DNA of 37,927 nucleotides from Pseudomonadota bacterium (lineage in GTDB: Bacteria > Pseudomonadota > Gammaproteobacteria > Xanthomonadales > Rhodanobacteraceae). The first letter of the stretch is position 1. Every line of letters begins with the position of its first letter. The notes beneath the pieces were generated by a model that saw nothing but the letters and a program-made list of their open reading frames with translations, ran no database searches and was not told the origin of the DNA. The translations under genes were made by a program, and so were the position numbers. Shown here piece after piece: positions 26,949 through 33,439 of the stretch. Where the stretch lies: contig JAJYQO010000016.1 in assembly GCA_021794575.1 (NCBI GenBank), forward strand, positions 6,168 through 44,094, given 5' to 3'.

Positions 26949-28556
26949 ATGATCGATGGAACCGTTGTCGACCTCTCGCGCACGCAGTTCGCCGCCACTG
27001 CGCTGTACCACTACCTGTTCGTGCCGCTGACGCTGGGCCTGAGCTTCCTGCTGGCGGCGATGGAGACGGTGTACGTCACCACCGGCAAGCCGATCTACAA
27101 GCAGATGGCGCAGTTCTGGGGCAAGTTGTTCATGATCAACTTCGCCCTCGGCGTGGCCACCGGGCTGACCATGGAGTTCCAGTTCGGCACCAACTGGTCG
27201 TTCTACTCCAGCTTCGTCGGCGACATCTTCGGCGCGCCGTTGGCCATCGAGGGCCTGATGGCCTTCTTCATGGAGTCCACCTTCGTCGGCTTGATGGTGT
27301 TCGGCTGGGAGCGGCTGTCCAAGGGCCAGCATCTGGCGGTGACCTGGCTGGTGGCGCTGGGTTCCAACCTCTCGGCACTGTGGATCCTGATCGCCAACAG
27401 CTTCATGCAGGATCCCCGGGGCGCGGCATTCGATCCGACCACCCTGCGCATGCAGCTGACCAGTTTTCAGCAGTTGATCTTCAGCCCCGACGCGCAATCC
27501 AAGTTCGTGCACACCAGCATCGCCGGCTACGTGACCGCGGCGGTGTTCGTCGCCGGCATCAGCGCCTGGTACATGCTCAAGCGCCGGCACATGGACCTGG
27601 CCAAGCGCTCGTTCCGCATGGCGGCGCTGTTTGGCGTGCTGGCCACCATCGGCGTGATCACCCTGGGCGATGCACTGGGTTTCGTCGCCGCGCAGGCGCA
27701 GCCGACCAAGCTGGCGGCGATGGAAGGCCTGTGGAAGAGCGAGCCGGCGCCGATGCCGTTCAACCTGATCGCCTTCCCCGACCAGTCGTTGCAGAAGAAC
27801 GCGGGGGCGGTGCAGGTGCCGTATCTGCTGTCGCTGCTGGTGACGCACTCGCTGGACGGCACCGTGGCCGGCATCGATGCGCTGGAGCGTCAGGCGGCGC
27901 AGAAAGTCGAGAACGGCATTCCGGCGGTGCAAGCGCTGCAGGTGCTGTCCAAGAATCCGAAGGACGCCGCGGCGCTGGCGCAGTTCAAGGCGCACGAGCA
28001 GGATCTGGGTTACGGCTTCCTGGTGCAGCGCTACGCGCCCGACCTCCAGCACGTGACGCCGCAGCAGGTGCAGCAGGCGGCGCGCGACAGCATTCCGCCC
28101 GTCGCGGCGGTGTTCTGGTCGTTCCGGCTGATGGTGGGCTTCGGCCTGCTGATGCTGGCGTATTTCGTGTTGGCGGTGATTTACACCCTGCGCAACCGCG
28201 TGCAGGACCAGCGCTGGTTTCTCAGAGCCGCGGTGTGGATGATCCCGGTGCCGTTCCTGGCTAACGAGACCGGCTGGCTGGTGGCGGAGCTGGGCCGGCA
28301 GCCGTGGACCGTGTACGGCGTGCTGCCGACGTGGATGAGCGCCTCGACCCACAGCGTGGGCTACATGGCCTTCTCACTGATCGGATTCGTGACGCTGTAC
28401 AGCGCCTTCATCGTCGTCGAGATGTTCCTGATGCTGCGCGCCATCCGCCACGGACCCGACGGGCCCGGACAGCACCCGCCGTACACGCAACAGCGTCCGG
28501 CACTGGCGCCGCGGCCGGTGCCCGCGGCCGCCCACGACACCCATCTGGAGGGCTGA
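26949..28556 (+). CDS. cydA: Cytochrome bd ubiquinol oxidase subunit I
   Basis: The 535-residue inner-membrane protein has nine predicted helices. Heme ligands are H21 (b595), H188 and M395 (both b558). Proton-path acids are E101 and E109. The quinol-site residues K254 and E259 lie in QPTKLAAMEGLW, and GRQPW is at 449-453. The Q-loop is long, like E. coli bd-I (L-subfamily), not the short loop of cyanide-insensitive CioA. The enzyme oxidises ubiquinol and reduces O2 with high affinity without pumping protons. It is the first gene of cydABXDC. The C-terminal tail is Pro/Ala/His-rich and longer than in E. coli. Confidence 0.97.
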   Translation: MIDGTVVDLSRTQFAATALYHYLFVPLTLGLSFLLAAMETVYVTTGKPIYKQMAQFWGKLFMINFALGVATGLTMEFQFGTNWSFYSSFVGDIFGAPLAIEGLMAFFMESTFVGLMVFGWERLSKGQHLAVTWLVALGSNLSALWILIANSFMQDPRGAAFDPTTLRMQLTSFQQLIFSPDAQSKFVHTSIAGYVTAAVFVAGISAWYMLKRRHMDLAKRSFRMAALFGVLATIGVITLGDALGFVAAQAQPTKLAAMEGLWKSEPAPMPFNLIAFPDQSLQKNAGAVQVPYLLSLLVTHSLDGTVAGIDALERQAAQKVENGIPAVQALQVLSKNPKDAAALAQFKAHEQDLGYGFLVQRYAPDLQHVTPQQVQQAARDSIPPVAAVFWSFRLMVGFGLLMLAYFVLAVIYTLRNRVQDQRWFLRAAVWMIPVPFLANETGWLVAELGRQPWTVYGVLPTWMSASTHSVGYMAFSLIGFVTLYSAFIVVEMFLMLRAIRHGPDGPGQHPPYTQQRPALAPRPVPAAAHDTHLEG

Positions 28557-28559
28557 GTC

Positions 28560-29693
28560 ATGGAACTGTATGCAGCACTGCAGGTGATCTGGTGGCTGCT
28601 GCTGGGCGTGCTGCTCAGCGGCCTGGCGGTGATGGTCGGCATGGACATGGGCGTGGGCACGATCCTGCGCTACGTCGGCCGCAGCGACCTGGAGCGCCGC
28701 GTGGCGTTGAACATCATCGGGCCGCACTGGGACGGCAACCAGGTATGGTTCATCCTCGGCGGGGGCGCAGTGTTCGCGGCGTTTCCGCTGATCTACGCCA
28801 CCGCGTTCTCGGGCTTCTATGTGGTGATGCTGCTGCTGCTGTGGACGATGATTCTGCGTCCGCTCGGCTTCGAGTACCGCAGCAAGATCGACTCGCCAGT
28901 CTGGCGCAACGCGTGGGATTGGGCGTTGCTGGTCAGCGGCGCGGTGCCGATGGTGGTGTTTGGCGCCGCCTTCGGCAACCTGTTCCACGGCGTACCGTTC
29001 CATTTCGAGTGGAACCTCACCTCGGTGTACACCGGCAGCTTCCTCGGCTTGCTCAATCCGTTCGCCATTCTGTGCGGCCTGCTGGCGCTGGCGTTGTCGG
29101 TGATGATGGGTGCGCTGACGGTGATGAACGGCGCCGAGGGCGTGATGCAGCAGCGCGCGCGCACGCTGCTGCAAGTGGCCGCCGCCGCCGCCGTCGTGTT
29201 GTTCGCCATCGGCGGCGTGTGGCTGCATGCCATCCCCGGCTACAGCATGGTCAGCGGCCCCGGCGCCGGCGTGCCGCAGACACCACTGCAACAGGTGGTC
29301 GAGGTGATGCCGGGCGCCTGGCAGGCCAACTTCGCCGCGCAGCCGGTATTGTGGCTGCTGCCGCTGGCAGGCTTCGCCGGAATGCTCGGCGCGCTGTTCG
29401 CCGGCCGCGCCGGCCGCTCGTACCTCGGCTGGTGGCTGGGTGCGCTGGCCTGGATCGGCGTGATCGGCAGCGCCGGTGCCGCGCTGTTCCCGTTCCTGCT
29501 GCCTTCCAGCAGCGATCCGTCGGTGAGCCTGACCCTGTGGAACGCCAGTTCCAGCCGCCTGACACTGAGCTGGATGCTGGTCATGGCGCTGGTGTTCGTG
29601 CCGCTGATCCTCTGGTACACCAGTTGGGCGTTCTGGGTGATGCGCGGCAAGGTCAGGCCCGAGACCATCGCCCACGACGAGCATGCCTACTGA
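28560..29693 (+). CDS. cydB: Cytochrome bd ubiquinol oxidase subunit II
   Basis: The 377-residue membrane protein has about eight helices and is the non-heme-ligating partner of CydA. Typical CydB segments are VMVGMDMGVGTILRYVG, NIIGPHWDGNQVWFILGGGAVFAAFP and NPFAILCGLLALALSVMMGA near the middle, with the family C-terminus LILWYTSWAFWVMRGKV. It starts three bases after the cydA stop. The length is close to that of E. coli CydB (379). It is followed after ten bases by cydX. Confidence 0.97.
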   Translation: MELYAALQVIWWLLLGVLLSGLAVMVGMDMGVGTILRYVGRSDLERRVALNIIGPHWDGNQVWFILGGGAVFAAFPLIYATAFSGFYVVMLLLLWTMILRPLGFEYRSKIDSPVWRNAWDWALLVSGAVPMVVFGAAFGNLFHGVPFHFEWNLTSVYTGSFLGLLNPFAILCGLLALALSVMMGALTVMNGAEGVMQQRARTLLQVAAAAAVVLFAIGGVWLHAIPGYSMVSGPGAGVPQTPLQQVVEVMPGAWQANFAAQPVLWLLPLAGFAGMLGALFAGRAGRSYLGWWLGALAWIGVIGSAGAALFPFLLPSSSDPSVSLTLWNASSSRLTLSWMLVMALVFVPLILWYTSWAFWVMRGKVRPETIAHDEHAY

Positions 29694-29703
29694 GGAGCAC
29701 GCC

Positions 29704-29919
29704 ATGAAAACCTTCGCCTATTTTCTGCTGTTCCTGGTGCTGGCCTTCGTGGTGATCCTGTTGGCCGCGCTGCTGGGCGACGAGGGTGCCTGGTACTTCG
29801 CATGGTTGGTCGGTACCGCGATGATCGTGCTGATCGCCGCTGCCGGTGCCGCGCTGCTCGACACGCAGGAGGACCAGGCGGCGCAAGCGCATGCCGCGGG
29901 CGAACGGGCGGTACCCTGA
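29704..29919 (+). CDS. cydX: Extended CydX-like subunit of cytochrome bd
   Basis: This is a 71-residue two-helix membrane protein. Residues 30-71 carry the CydX signature WYFAWLVGT followed by a hydrophobic helix and an acidic DTQEDQ tail, as in the 37-residue E. coli CydX. Residues 1-29 add a further hydrophobic helix (FAYFLLFLVLAFVVILLAALL) ahead of the signature. The start is well supported: GAGGAG lies six bases before ATG 29704, and no in-frame Met occurs before WYFAW. CydX stabilises the heme b595/d site. What the extra helix does is unknown; it may occupy a CydH/CydY-like position. The gene lies between cydB and cydD. Confidence 0.85.
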   Translation: MKTFAYFLLFLVLAFVVILLAALLGDEGAWYFAWLVGTAMIVLIAAAGAALLDTQEDQAAQAHAAGERAVP

Positions 29920-31697
29920 GCGGACAGCACCGCGATGCGCCGCCGCCGTCCGCGATAGCGACGAATCGGCGCTCGCGGGCCGCGGACTGGCTGCGCGTCG
30001 AGGCGCGGCGAATCCGCAAGCCCCTGCAGGCAAGTGCCGCGCTGACTGCGCTGCAGACGCTGCTGCTGGTGGCGCAGGCCTGGCTGCTGGCCGACATCCT
30101 CAGCGCCGCGCTGCTGCGGCGCGCGTCGCTCCCGGCGCTGTGGCCGCAGTGGCTGGGCTTGCTGGTGCTGGCCGCGTTGCGCGCGGTGCTGATCGCGCAG
30201 GGACGACGGTTGGCCTTCGACGCCAGCCAGCAGCTGGGCAGCAGCCTGCGTGCGCGTTTGCTGCGTCAGGCACAGGCACTGGGTGTGCCCGGCCTGCGCG
30301 CGCAGGCGGGCGGCGATTGGGTCACACGCATGGTCGATGGCGTGGAGCAGGTACTGCCGTACTTCGCACGCTATCTGCCCGGCGCGGCGAGCGCGGCGCT
30401 GCTGCCACCGATCCTGGCTGTGTTCGTGTTTCCGGCGGACTGGGTCTCGGGCCTGGTGCTGCTGTTGACCGCGCCATTGATTCCACTGTTCATGGTGCTG
30501 GTGGGCAACGCCGCCGAGCGCGCCAGCCAGAAGCGTTATGCGCAGTTGCGCCGGCTCGGCGCCGCCTTCATCGACGCATTGGGCGGCTTGACCACGCTGC
30601 GTCAGCTGGGCGCGGCCGAGCGCGTGGCCGACCAGCTTCAGGCCGAAGGCGAGGATTACCGCCGGCTGACCTTGCAGGTGCTGCGCGTGGCGTTTCTCTC
30701 GGCGCTGGTGCTGGAGTTCTTCGCCATGGTCGGCATCGCCGTGGTGGCGGTACTGATCGGTTTTCGCCTGCTCTGGCATGAGCTGGCTTTCCGCGACGGC
30801 ATCTTCGTGTTGCTGCTGGCGCCGGAGTTCTATCTGCCGATGCGCGCGCTGGGCGGTTTGCGCCACGCGCGCATGGATGCGCTGGCCGCCGCGGGGGATC
30901 TGCTGGAATTCGCGCCGGCTCCGATCGCATCATGCGCGGGTGTGCCCGGCGAGCGGCCCGCCGGGCGCGGCGCGCCGACGGTGCGGATCGAAAACCTGCA
31001 CTACTCACTTCCCGGTCGCGGCGTGCTGCTGCGCGGTCTCAATGCCACGATCGGCCCCGGCATCACCGCGCTGGTGGGTGAAACCGGCGCCGGGAAAAGC
31101 ACGCTGCTGGATCTGCTGCTGGGTTTCGCAGCACCGGAATCGGGGCAGATCCGCATTGATGGAGTCGAACTCGCGCGGCTGGATCCGGCACAGTGGCGCG
31201 CGCGCATCGCCTGGGTGCCACAACGGCCGCATGTGTTCGCGGGCAGCGTGCGCGACAACCTGCTGCTGGCGGCCCCGGACGCGGCACCGGCAGCGTTGGC
31301 GCGTGCGCTGACCGCAAGCGGTCTGGATGTCGTATTGGCGCGATTGCCGCGTGGGCTGGACACGACGCTGGGCGAACAGGGTCTGGGGCTTTCCGGTGGC
31401 GAGCTGCAGCGCCTGGCGCTGGCACGCGCGCTGCTGCGCGAGCAGGCCACGCTGTGGCTGCTCGACGAACCTACCGCGCACCTGGACGCCGACAGCGCGC
31501 GCGCCATCGACACGATGATCCGCGCCGCCGCCGCCACGCGCAGCGTATTGCTGGTGGCGCACCGGCTGGAGGCAGCGCGGTCCGCCGATCAGGTGCTGGT
31601 GCTGCGCGCGGGCTGCATCGTCGAGCATGGCGCGCCGCGCGCGCTGGCGCACAGCCGGGGCGCCTTCGCCGCGCTGCTGGCTGCGGAGGCACCGTGA
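29916..31697 (+). CDS. cydD: Thiol reductant ABC exporter subunit CydD
   Basis: This is a fused membrane-ATPase half-transporter. With CydC it exports glutathione/cysteine or binds heme to allow bd oxidase assembly. Six helices are followed by an ATPase with Walker A VGETGAGKSTLL, signature LSGGELQRLALARAL and Walker B LWLLDEPTAHLD. The homologous region starts at about ADWLRVEARRIRKPLQ. No in-frame ATG, GTG or TTG exists between the cydX stop and that point. The best candidate is CTG 29916 overlapping the cydX stop (CTGA), giving 593 residues. The next in-frame ATG upstream (29802) would overlap cydX by 118 bases and add an Arg/Cys-rich stretch. Confidence 0.88.
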   Translation: MSGQHRDAPPPSAIATNRRSRAADWLRVEARRIRKPLQASAALTALQTLLLVAQAWLLADILSAALLRRASLPALWPQWLGLLVLAALRAVLIAQGRRLAFDASQQLGSSLRARLLRQAQALGVPGLRAQAGGDWVTRMVDGVEQVLPYFARYLPGAASAALLPPILAVFVFPADWVSGLVLLLTAPLIPLFMVLVGNAAERASQKRYAQLRRLGAAFIDALGGLTTLRQLGAAERVADQLQAEGEDYRRLTLQVLRVAFLSALVLEFFAMVGIAVVAVLIGFRLLWHELAFRDGIFVLLLAPEFYLPMRALGGLRHARMDALAAAGDLLEFAPAPIASCAGVPGERPAGRGAPTVRIENLHYSLPGRGVLLRGLNATIGPGITALVGETGAGKSTLLDLLLGFAAPESGQIRIDGVELARLDPAQWRARIAWVPQRPHVFAGSVRDNLLLAAPDAAPAALARALTASGLDVVLARLPRGLDTTLGEQGLGLSGGELQRLALARALLREQATLWLLDEPTAHLDADSARAIDTMIRAAAATRSVLLVAHRLEAARSADQVLVLRAGCIVEHGAPRALAHSRGAFAALLAAEAP

Positions 31698-33439
31698 CGC
31701 GCGCACTGCCCGCCGAGATCCGCCGGCTGCTGGCCGTGCTGCGCCCGCAGCGCGCATGGTTATGGGGCGGCGCCGTGCTGGCGCTGCTGGCGGCGCTGGC
31801 GGCGATCGGACTGATGGCGGTTTCCGGCTGGTTCATCGCGGCGATGGCGCTGGCCGGCGCCAGCGGCGCGGCCATCAACTACTTCAGCCCGGCCGCCGCC
31901 ATTCGCGGCCTGGCCATCGCTCGCAGCGGCGGCCGCTATGGCGAGCGGCTGGTCACCCACGAAGCGACGCTGCGCGGCCTGACTGATCTGCGCGCCTGGT
32001 TGTTCCGGCGGCTGATTCCATTGGCTCCGGCACGGTTGGCTGCGTTGCGCAGCGGCGAGCTGCTGGCGCGCCTGCGCAGCGATGTGGATGCGCTGGAGCA
32101 CTTTTATCTCGCCGTGCTGGTGCCGGCGGCGGTGGCGCTGGGTGGCACGGCATTGGTCTTGCTGGTGGCGACGCTGGTGCTGCCGATCGCGGCGCCGGTG
32201 CTGCTGATCGCGGCAGCGCTGGCCGGCGTCCTGCTGCCGGCGTGGACACGGCGCCGCGCGGCGGCGGACGCGGCGCACGCGGTGCGGGAAGCCGCCGAAC
32301 TGCGCGGATCGCTGCTGGATGCGCTGCGCGGTCACGCCGAGCTGCTGGCCTGGGGCGCGGTGGACGCGCATGCCGCGCGCATCGCCGGGCTCGACGTGCG
32401 GCTGGCCGCGCGTCGCCGGCGCATCGAGCGTGTGCAGGCCATGGGCAGCGGCGCGTCGATGCTGCTGGCGCAGCTCGCGGTGCTGGCGGTGCTGGTGCCC
32501 GGCCTGGCTGCCGTGCATGCAGGGGCCGTCGCGCCGCCGCTGCTGACGATGCTGGCGCTGCTGACGCTGGCACTGTTCGACGTGCTGGCGCCGCTGCCCG
32601 AGGCGTTGGCGCAGTGGCAGGCCACGCTGACCGCCGCGCGGCGCGTGTTCGAACTGGCCGACGCGCGGCCGGCCGTGGCCGATCCCGCCACCTCGGCGAA
32701 CATCGCGCAGCCGCCGGCGATCCGCTTCGAACGGGTATGCCTGCGCTATGCCGTGGATGCGCCCTGGGCGCTGAACGAACTCGATCTGGAGCTGGCGCCC
32801 GGCGCGCGGCTGGCCATCGTCGGCGCCTCCGGTGCCGGCAAGAGCAGCCTGCTGCTGGCACTGCAGAAGTTCTACCCCCTCCAGCGCGGCGAAATCCGGT
32901 TCGGCGGCCAGCCGCTGGCCATGTTGCGTGGCGACGACTTGCGCCGGCAGATCGCCGTCATCGCCCAGCACACGGTACTGTTCGATCGATCGCTGCTGGA
33001 CAACCTGCTGCTGGCGGCGCCCGCAGCCGGTGCCGCGCAGATCGAGCGGGCGGTGAGCCTGGCGCAACTGGATGCCTTTGTGTCGGCCCTGCCGCAGGGC
33101 TACGACACCCCGCTGGGCGATGCCGGCGCGCGGGTTTCCGGCGGCGAGGCGCGCCGCATCACCATCGCGCGCGCGCTGCTGCAGGATGCGCCGGTACTGG
33201 TGCTGGACGAGCCTACCGAGGGCCTGGACGCGAACACCGCGCGCGAGCTCTATGCCGCGCTGGATGCCGCCGCGCGCGGCCGCACGTTGCTGCTGGTCAC
33301 GCACCGCCTCGGCGGCCTCGCGCGTTTGGTCGATGAAGTCGTGGTGATGTGCGCCGGGCGCATCGCCGAGCGGCTGCCCGTGCGCGCCTATCTGGCGCGT
33401 GAATCAAGTATCGCTGTCACGATGCCCGGTGGCGCCTGA
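31694..33439 (+). CDS. cydC: Thiol reductant ABC exporter subunit CydC
   Basis: This 581-residue half-transporter is the partner of CydD. The N-terminal six helices include LMAVSGWFIAAMALAG and the CydC-typical INYFSPAAAIRGLAIARSGGRYGERL. The ATPase domain has Walker A VGASGAGKSSLL, signature RVSGGEARRITIARAL and Walker B VLVLDEPTEGLD. The start is GTG 31694, overlapping the cydD stop (GTGA), so translation is coupled. It is the last gene of the cyd operon. Gene order cydABX-cydDC places oxidase structural and assembly genes in one transcript, unlike E. coli where cydDC is separate. Confidence 0.96.
   Translation: MTRALPAEIRRLLAVLRPQRAWLWGGAVLALLAALAAIGLMAVSGWFIAAMALAGASGAAINYFSPAAAIRGLAIARSGGRYGERLVTHEATLRGLTDLRAWLFRRLIPLAPARLAALRSGELLARLRSDVDALEHFYLAVLVPAAVALGGTALVLLVATLVLPIAAPVLLIAAALAGVLLPAWTRRRAAADAAHAVREAAELRGSLLDALRGHAELLAWGAVDAHAARIAGLDVRLAARRRRIERVQAMGSGASMLLAQLAVLAVLVPGLAAVHAGAVAPPLLTMLALLTLALFDVLAPLPEALAQWQATLTAARRVFELADARPAVADPATSANIAQPPAIRFERVCLRYAVDAPWALNELDLELAPGARLAIVGASGAGKSSLLLALQKFYPLQRGEIRFGGQPLAMLRGDDLRRQIAVIAQHTVLFDRSLLDNLLLAAPAAGAAQIERAVSLAQLDAFVSALPQGYDTPLGDAGARVSGGEARRITIARALLQDAPVLVLDEPTEGLDANTARELYAALDAAARGRTLLLVTHRLGGLARLVDEVVVMCAGRIAERLPVRAYLARESSIAVTMPGGA

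Follow-up and report, generated by a model that had tools for sequence, protein, structure and literature searches.

A two-helix form of the cytochrome bd subunit CydX in the cydABXDC cluster of a Rhodanobacteraceae bacterium

In Escherichia coli, the cytochrome bd-I and bd-II quinol oxidases carry the one-helix subunits CydX (37 amino acids) and AppX (30 amino acids), respectively, which are encoded after cydB or appB and whose helix starts with WY, directly preceded by the initiator methionine. Longer forms have also been described. Allen 2014 defined the CydX motif YxxWxxGx15[E/D] and described, within a 'grey clade', CydX proteins of Alpha-, Beta- and Gammaproteobacteria that have an N-terminal extension and a second hydrophobic helix, for which horizontal transfer was proposed; the legend of its Figure 7 lists Frateuria aurantia and Thiomonas intermedia, which we read as being among the grey-clade species (PMC4325964). 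Degli Esposti 2015 reported that the gene following cydB encodes a small protein predicted to have two transmembrane segments in acetic acid bacteria, Acidiphilium angustum, Salinisphaera hydrothermalis and further organisms (PMC5322542). The legend of its Fig. 7 lists Dyella ginsengisoli with a cydABDC cluster, and the portion of that text available to us contains no two-segment statement for the CydX of this species. Here we analyse a cydX gene (positions 29704..29919, + strand, 71 amino acids plus stop) in a 37,927-nucleotide stretch of contig JAJYQO010000016.1 from a bacterium of the Rhodanobacteraceae (assembly GCA_021794575.1), hereafter the window. Its product is a further member of the variant described in 2014 and 2015.

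From its sequence, the open reading frame (ORF) is predicted to encode CydX of a cytochrome bd quinol oxidase of the long-Q-loop type. The Q-loop span of the window CydA is 136 residues, equal to that of E. coli, and the CydX motif is present with its exact spacing, as it is in 87/87 distinct two-helix and 43/43 distinct one-helix members. A first-pass annotation of this DNA had described a CydX with a complete extra N-terminal helix, and this description is borne out: WYFAW begins at W30, after a complete hydrophobic helix, whereas E. coli CydX and AppX have a single helix. Helix 1 comprises residues 3-24 (29710..29775, + strand) and is delimited by hydropathy, conservation and a ratio of nonsynonymous to synonymous substitution rates (dN/dS) of 0.24-0.28 over codons 3-24. 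It is followed by a connecting turn, GDEGA (residues 25-29; 29776..29790, + strand), placed by its conservation and acidic residues and probably periplasmic, and by helix 2, which carries the CydX signature (residues 30-53; 29791..29862, + strand). Kyte-Doolittle means over 19 residues reach up to 3.21 in helix 1 and are 2.26 in helix 2. Among 80 aligned two-helix members, W30, Y31, W34, G37 and L43 are invariant. In the turn, G25 is found in 97% and G28 in 87% (weighted). Positions 30-61 of the two-helix profile match E. coli CydX in the solved structure (6rko_X, E-value 0.0022), starting at W2 of the E. coli protein. This was the best of 11 matches at E ≤ 10 in the search of solved structures, none of which is a two-helix relative. 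The protein was also taken at first to depart from known CydX, a view that does not hold, since the second helix is already present in the accounts of Allen 2014 and Degli Esposti 2015. In both the Allen 2014 form and the window protein a CydX core follows the additional helix, and we found no difference between them in the parts of that article available to us. The finding is therefore an ordinary one, a known variant in another genome that is missed by the curated CydX models.

The window CydX falls below the curated cut-offs of both models (12.8 versus 26.2 bits for PF08173, 13.9 versus 31.6 bits for TIGR02106), although at E ≤ 0.1 they match 73 and 74 of the 80 aligned members, respectively. 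The cut-off is a limit of the models and not a biological criterion, and the Pfam CydX model has been judged too stringent, in the passages of Allen 2014 that we could consult (PMC4325964). With such scores, the window CydX may be overlooked by automatic annotation. Another small subunit family, CydZ/DUF2474 (PF10617), is absent from the 11 Pfam matches of the window CydX at E ≤ 1 and from the 25 shown of the 35 families matched by the 80 members. CydZ is expected with a short-Q-loop CydA, in contrast to the long-Q-loop CydA of the window.

Helix 1 is very likely translated and constrained, less so than helix 2, because the two-helix frame recurs in all 80 fetched loci and the window, a Shine-Dalgarno (SD) sequence precedes most starts, the start distance is near-constant and dN/dS is low. 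The sequence upstream of the cydX ATG is TGAGGAGCACGCC; it holds an AGGAG ribosome-binding site (29693..29697, + strand) that overlaps the last base of the cydB stop codon and lies 6 nucleotides (nt) from the start, in agreement with the first-pass claim of a good ribosome-binding site at the upstream ATG. SD matches of at least 4 nt precede 74/80 two-helix starts (79 loci and the window), and the distance from start to W is 29 residues in 76/87 distinct two-helix proteins and 27-31 in all. For codons 2-29, dN/dS is 0.225 compared with 0.098 for helix 2 (148 pairs from 77 sequences), or 0.200 compared with 0.066 when 27 non-overlapping pairs are used.

These data also bear on whether helix 1 might be cleaved off as a signal peptide or might be an untranslated extension, leaving an ordinary one-helix CydX as the working subunit. 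Alternative starts do occur inside helix 1 of the window: the one nearest to W30 is a TTG 10 residues upstream, with GGTGAT upstream of it, and GTG codons lie at 13, 14 and 18 residues. The N-terminus is hydrophobic and signal-like, with K2 or R2 in 71/87 distinct members. However, purifying selection extends throughout helix 1, its length is nearly constant, and neither the window nor any of 80 loci has an ATG, GTG or TTG directly before the W. The residues preceding the W (for example, DEGA, ARGA, DYAS and DYGP) show no consistent small-x-small pattern when judged by eye, no signal-peptide program having been used. We consider a cleaved or untranslated helix 1 very improbable.

The two-helix form is shared by the relatives. 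It is found at 80/80 related cydB loci plus the window, as the ORF after cydB in the fetched loci; these are the best 80 of 181 relatives in a CydB scan and were chosen by CydB similarity, so the proportion is not a rate. Relatives with only the short form, a case that the first-pass annotation had raised, did not occur among them. Among relatives that carry a name, Dyella, Rhodanobacter and Frateuria show high CydB identity, and two-helix CydX was found in loci of Frateuria defendens (L033), Dyella acidiphila (L020) and Thiomonas. Frateuria belongs to the Rhodanobacteraceae. Dyella is placed in this family in a taxonomy listing, and Frateuria has many species synonyms in common with it.

Wider searches used the two-helix family profile at E ≤ 0.001, with which divergent one-helix forms may be missed. 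At the level of the class, 18/185 genomes have a match; four matches reach helix 1 (profile start 1-4) and 14 start at 22-30, with an initiator methionine directly before the W in 13 of these 14 (L097 could not be checked). Within the order, 17/101 genomes matched, three full-length and 14 one-helix, all 14 of which were checked. The family gave 23/59 matching genomes, of which 15 are full-length and eight are of the short type by match start only, and in the window's own genus the full-length form is present in 4/4 genomes of the sample. Across the phylum, 45/398 genomes matched, with five full-length matches and 40 starting at profile position 20 or later; among these 40, the form was read in those with loci. 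Both forms occur within the window's family, and a single genus label can cover both (G282 with two helices, G256 with one). Plasmid carriage of a close copy was rejected, a plasmid collection giving no match at E ≤ 0.01.

Several loci required individual handling. L097 and L122 were dropped, having no cydB match. L118 was scored 'none' by pattern and two-helix by eye, and a longer stretch of the same genome (L167) was scored two-helix; L084 was likewise first scored 'none' and became two-helix once the stretch before cydB was included. L067, in which the stop was not reached, was omitted from the two-helix alignment A1, L034 was taken from its GTG and not from the upstream ATG, and L081, which is the window again, was excluded from the trees.

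Five Thiomonas-type operons have a second, tandem two-helix CydX-like ORF of 65-73 amino acids after the first, containing ...GSNASWYFAW... (L052:5444-5641, L065:1643-1864, L071:5445-5648, L074:5493-5699 and L077:5447-5650); L079 has only one. As read from these sequences, a Thiomonas-type operon with tandem ORFs may encode two alternative CydX subunits.

In trees of CydA and CydB sequences, the two-helix form belongs to one lineage of enzymes. The two forms fall on opposite sides of a single branch in the CydB tree (135 rows, L118 not counted) and in the CydA tree (117 rows, in which long branches meet where two-helix L141 joins the one-helix rows). In a more careful CydA tree of 70 rows (41 two-helix, 29 one-helix) the separating branch has 100/100 support and the split is recovered in 100% of 200 bootstrap trees; the E. 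coli AppC branch is long there (1.26) and its placement unsure. The CydA alignment leaves out L026, L044, L148 and L174. None of the trees includes an outgroup, and they therefore do not polarise gain versus loss of helix 1. A clean split by CydB identity to the window was seen in a first set (57.6-100% for two-helix and 39.9-52.1% for one-helix enzymes) and was lost with the two-helix loci L084 (54.1%), L116 (53.0%) and L118 (50.7%).

The structures of E. coli bd-I offer a guide to where the two helices would lie. In the E. coli bd-I structure paper, CydX has a hydrophilic C-terminal part facing the cytoplasm and touches CydA transmembrane helices (TM) 1, 5 and 6; a review of structures places it on TM1/4/5/6/7. 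The 2026 bd-I structures, likewise consulted in part, show CydX as a dimer interface formed through Met1-Trp2 and a leucine zipper, with a phosphatidylglycerol touching R298 and a ubiquinone between CydA S233 and CydX T10 (PMC13189123). The structure paper and the review are among the background sources PMC8951039, PMC8585947, PMC6853902, PMC6005532 and PMC8324918. Since the C-terminus of E. coli CydX is cytoplasmic, helix 2 would enter from the periplasmic side and helix 1 would begin in the cytoplasm. The charges of the N-terminal half agree with a cytoplasmic N-terminus and a periplasmic turn: K or R occurs within residues 1-6 in 85/87 distinct two-helix members, and the six residues before the W contain D or E in 70/87 and K or R in 15/87.

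We propose that the protein folds as a helical hairpin whose N- and C-terminus are cytoplasmic and whose short turn lies on the periplasmic side, near the Q-loop. Helix 2 would sit in the CydX seat on CydA (TM1/5/6), and the di-heme site would depend on it for assembly, as it does on CydX in E. coli; by this analogy, the window CydX is predicted to have the same role in heme d/b595 assembly. In the two-helix form the turn takes the place of Met1, and helix 1 would therefore be at or near the dimer face, packing against helix 2 on the side turned to the membrane, which in E. coli bd-I carries the CydX-CydX contact, interface lipids and bound ubiquinone. The most likely effect of the extra helix is therefore greater stability or a change in the pairing of two enzymes, and not contact with the CydH site or control of oxygen entry.

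Several observations weigh against this arrangement. In the C-terminal tail, acidic residues outnumber basic ones (mean D+E 4.34, K+R 2.01), giving no positive-inside support for a cytoplasmic C-terminus. AlphaFold2, run on the lone protein with 80 aligned rows, returned one continuous helix (residues 2-68) with a predicted template-modelling score (pTM) of 0.48 and a dip in confidence at residues 21-30. The conservation moment of helix 1 is non-significant (p 0.05-0.43, depending on the angle), leaving the packing face without support, and the literature searched gave no structure of, or experiment on, a two-helix CydX. Allen 2014 (PMC4325964) and Degli Esposti 2015 (PMC5322542), in the parts we could consult, give a periplasmic C-terminus; both pre-date the structures. 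The cydX-like proteins of Degli Esposti 2015 share two segments and the place after cydB with the window protein, and differ in this periplasmic C-terminus from the cytoplasmic one favoured by cryo-electron microscopy. Taken as a whole, a long-Q-loop bd CydX of the known two-helix form, with its hairpin beside the CydX seat, is nonetheless the explanation that we consider probable.

The first-pass annotation had gone further, suggesting that the two-helix protein merges CydX with the position of a second accessory subunit, CydH/CydY. Helix 1 would then occupy the CydH/CydY site, so that a single protein stands in for both CydX and CydH and shuts off the lipid-side route of oxygen to heme b595. 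Like helix 1, E. coli CydH/CydY (YnhF) is a small hydrophobic helix of a bd oxidase; unlike helix 1, it is the product of a separate gene, and it lies on the other side of CydA, in the TM1/TM9 cleft opposite CydX according to the figure legend of a review available to us in part. A connection of only about five residues would be unlikely to reach that far. The main point in favour of this reading is a weak similarity: in an alignment of CydH with helix 1, the mean score was 27.7 compared with 22.1 for shuffled CydH (p 0.017, uncorrected and one of five tests). Of the other comparisons, two addressed an internal duplication of the CydX helix (a score of 22.2 for helix 1 aligned with its own helix 2, compared with 20.1 for shuffled sequences, and p 0.19 for E. 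coli CydX aligned with helix 1), and one addressed YbgE as the source of helix 1 (p 0.17, with only a partial YbgE in the fetched stretch). The CydH model NF033411 matches none of the 80 two-helix members at E ≤ 0.1. This model was also run against 40 genomes, of which 21 are of the two-helix and 19 of the one-helix type by classification or match start; a fused subunit would fit with the fact that none of the 40 has a match over the cut-off while one control genome does, but the 19 one-helix genomes lack such a match as well and the absence of CydH does not track the form. Weak matches at E ≤ 1 occur in 13/40 genomes, the best being 1.6e-4 in a one-helix genome and 0.0056 in the two-helix genome G692, and the window's own genome has no match at E ≤ 1. 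Given the position of CydH across CydA from CydX, the failure of the model to match helix 1 and the lack of tracking, we rejected a CydX-CydH fusion, and we regard occupation of the CydH site as highly unlikely. What stands of the first interpretation is a CydX with a selected helix 1 that is shared by relatives; its novelty and the CydH/CydY merger do not.

Residues of CydA around the quinol site and the CydX site differ between the enzymes carrying the two forms. In a comparison of 86 two-helix and 31 one-helix CydA rows (four more skipped), position 233 (E. coli numbering, from alignments) is G76/A9/C1 in two-helix and S28/C3 in one-helix enzymes, position 240 is A84/S1/V1 versus E31, position 243 is F79/Y5/R1/E1 versus Y31, and position 298 is H84/R2 versus R31; the window CydA has G233, A240, F243 and H298. 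By contrast, H19, E99, H186, M393, E445, D239, K252 and E257 are the same in both forms wherever aligned. Under our thresholds 10/522 CydA columns are sharply diagnostic, four of them at 233-241, a segment chosen post hoc. The E. coli enzyme loses its activity with S233A, Y243A or R298A, and Y243 and R298 are termed uniquely conserved in long-Q-loop enzymes (PMC13189123, consulted in part). No paper naming the difference at 233, 240, 243 and 298 was found in the one targeted literature search or in passages of PMC13189123.

Such a pattern would suit a helix 1 that keeps the enzyme monomeric, or that takes part in a dimer contact of four helices, in connection with an altered quinol site: 85/86 two-helix rows have G or A at 233, 84/86 A240, 79/86 F243 and 84/86 H298, whereas all 31 one-helix rows keep S or C, E, Y and R, and four of the ten diagnostic columns fall in the segment at 233-241. 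However, the form changes once on the tree, so that the link amounts to a single event, and the CydA tree requires 3-9 changes at each of the four positions. In E. coli bd-II, AppC stands among the one-helix enzymes and pairs with the one-helix AppX, and it also has G233 and H298. Such changes therefore seem to have had more than one origin, and their link to helix 1 is not an exclusive one; an exclusive tie of the two-helix form to H298/G233 was rejected on these grounds. A helix 1 that sets the monomeric or four-helix dimeric state together with an altered quinol site is thus possible, if on the unlikely side. Doubtful, too, is the broader proposal of a separate long-Q-loop bd class, in which the extra helix would cover the CydA-CydX face that serves dimerisation and ubiquinone binding in E. 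coli bd-I and would go with a rebuilt quinol site (G233, A240, F243, H298), giving a different oligomeric state or quinol specificity. Conclusions from E. coli on quinol binding and CydX dimers may not carry over to the two-helix lineage, which mostly lacks Y243 and R298.

The hairpin CydX that we favour is encoded within a cydABXDC gene order. On the + strand of the window, cydA (cytochrome bd subunit I, 535 amino acids, long-Q-loop type; 26949..28556) is matched by Pfam PF01654 with 574.8 bits, the only PF01654 match in the whole genome, and cydB (subunit II, 377 amino acids; 28560..29693) by TIGR00203 with 399.3 bits (cut-off 117.3). The cydX start lies 10 nt past cydB. Downstream, also on the + strand, are two ORFs of uncertain true start: one with cydD (29802..31697; TIGR02857, 555 bits, cut-off 435, residues 72-601 of the frame) and one with cydC (31193..33439; TIGR02868, 430.3 bits, cut-off 329.05, residues 177-706 of the frame). 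In the loci L084 (G148:C32) and L141, the two-helix CydX ORF is located between cydA and cydB and not after cydB.
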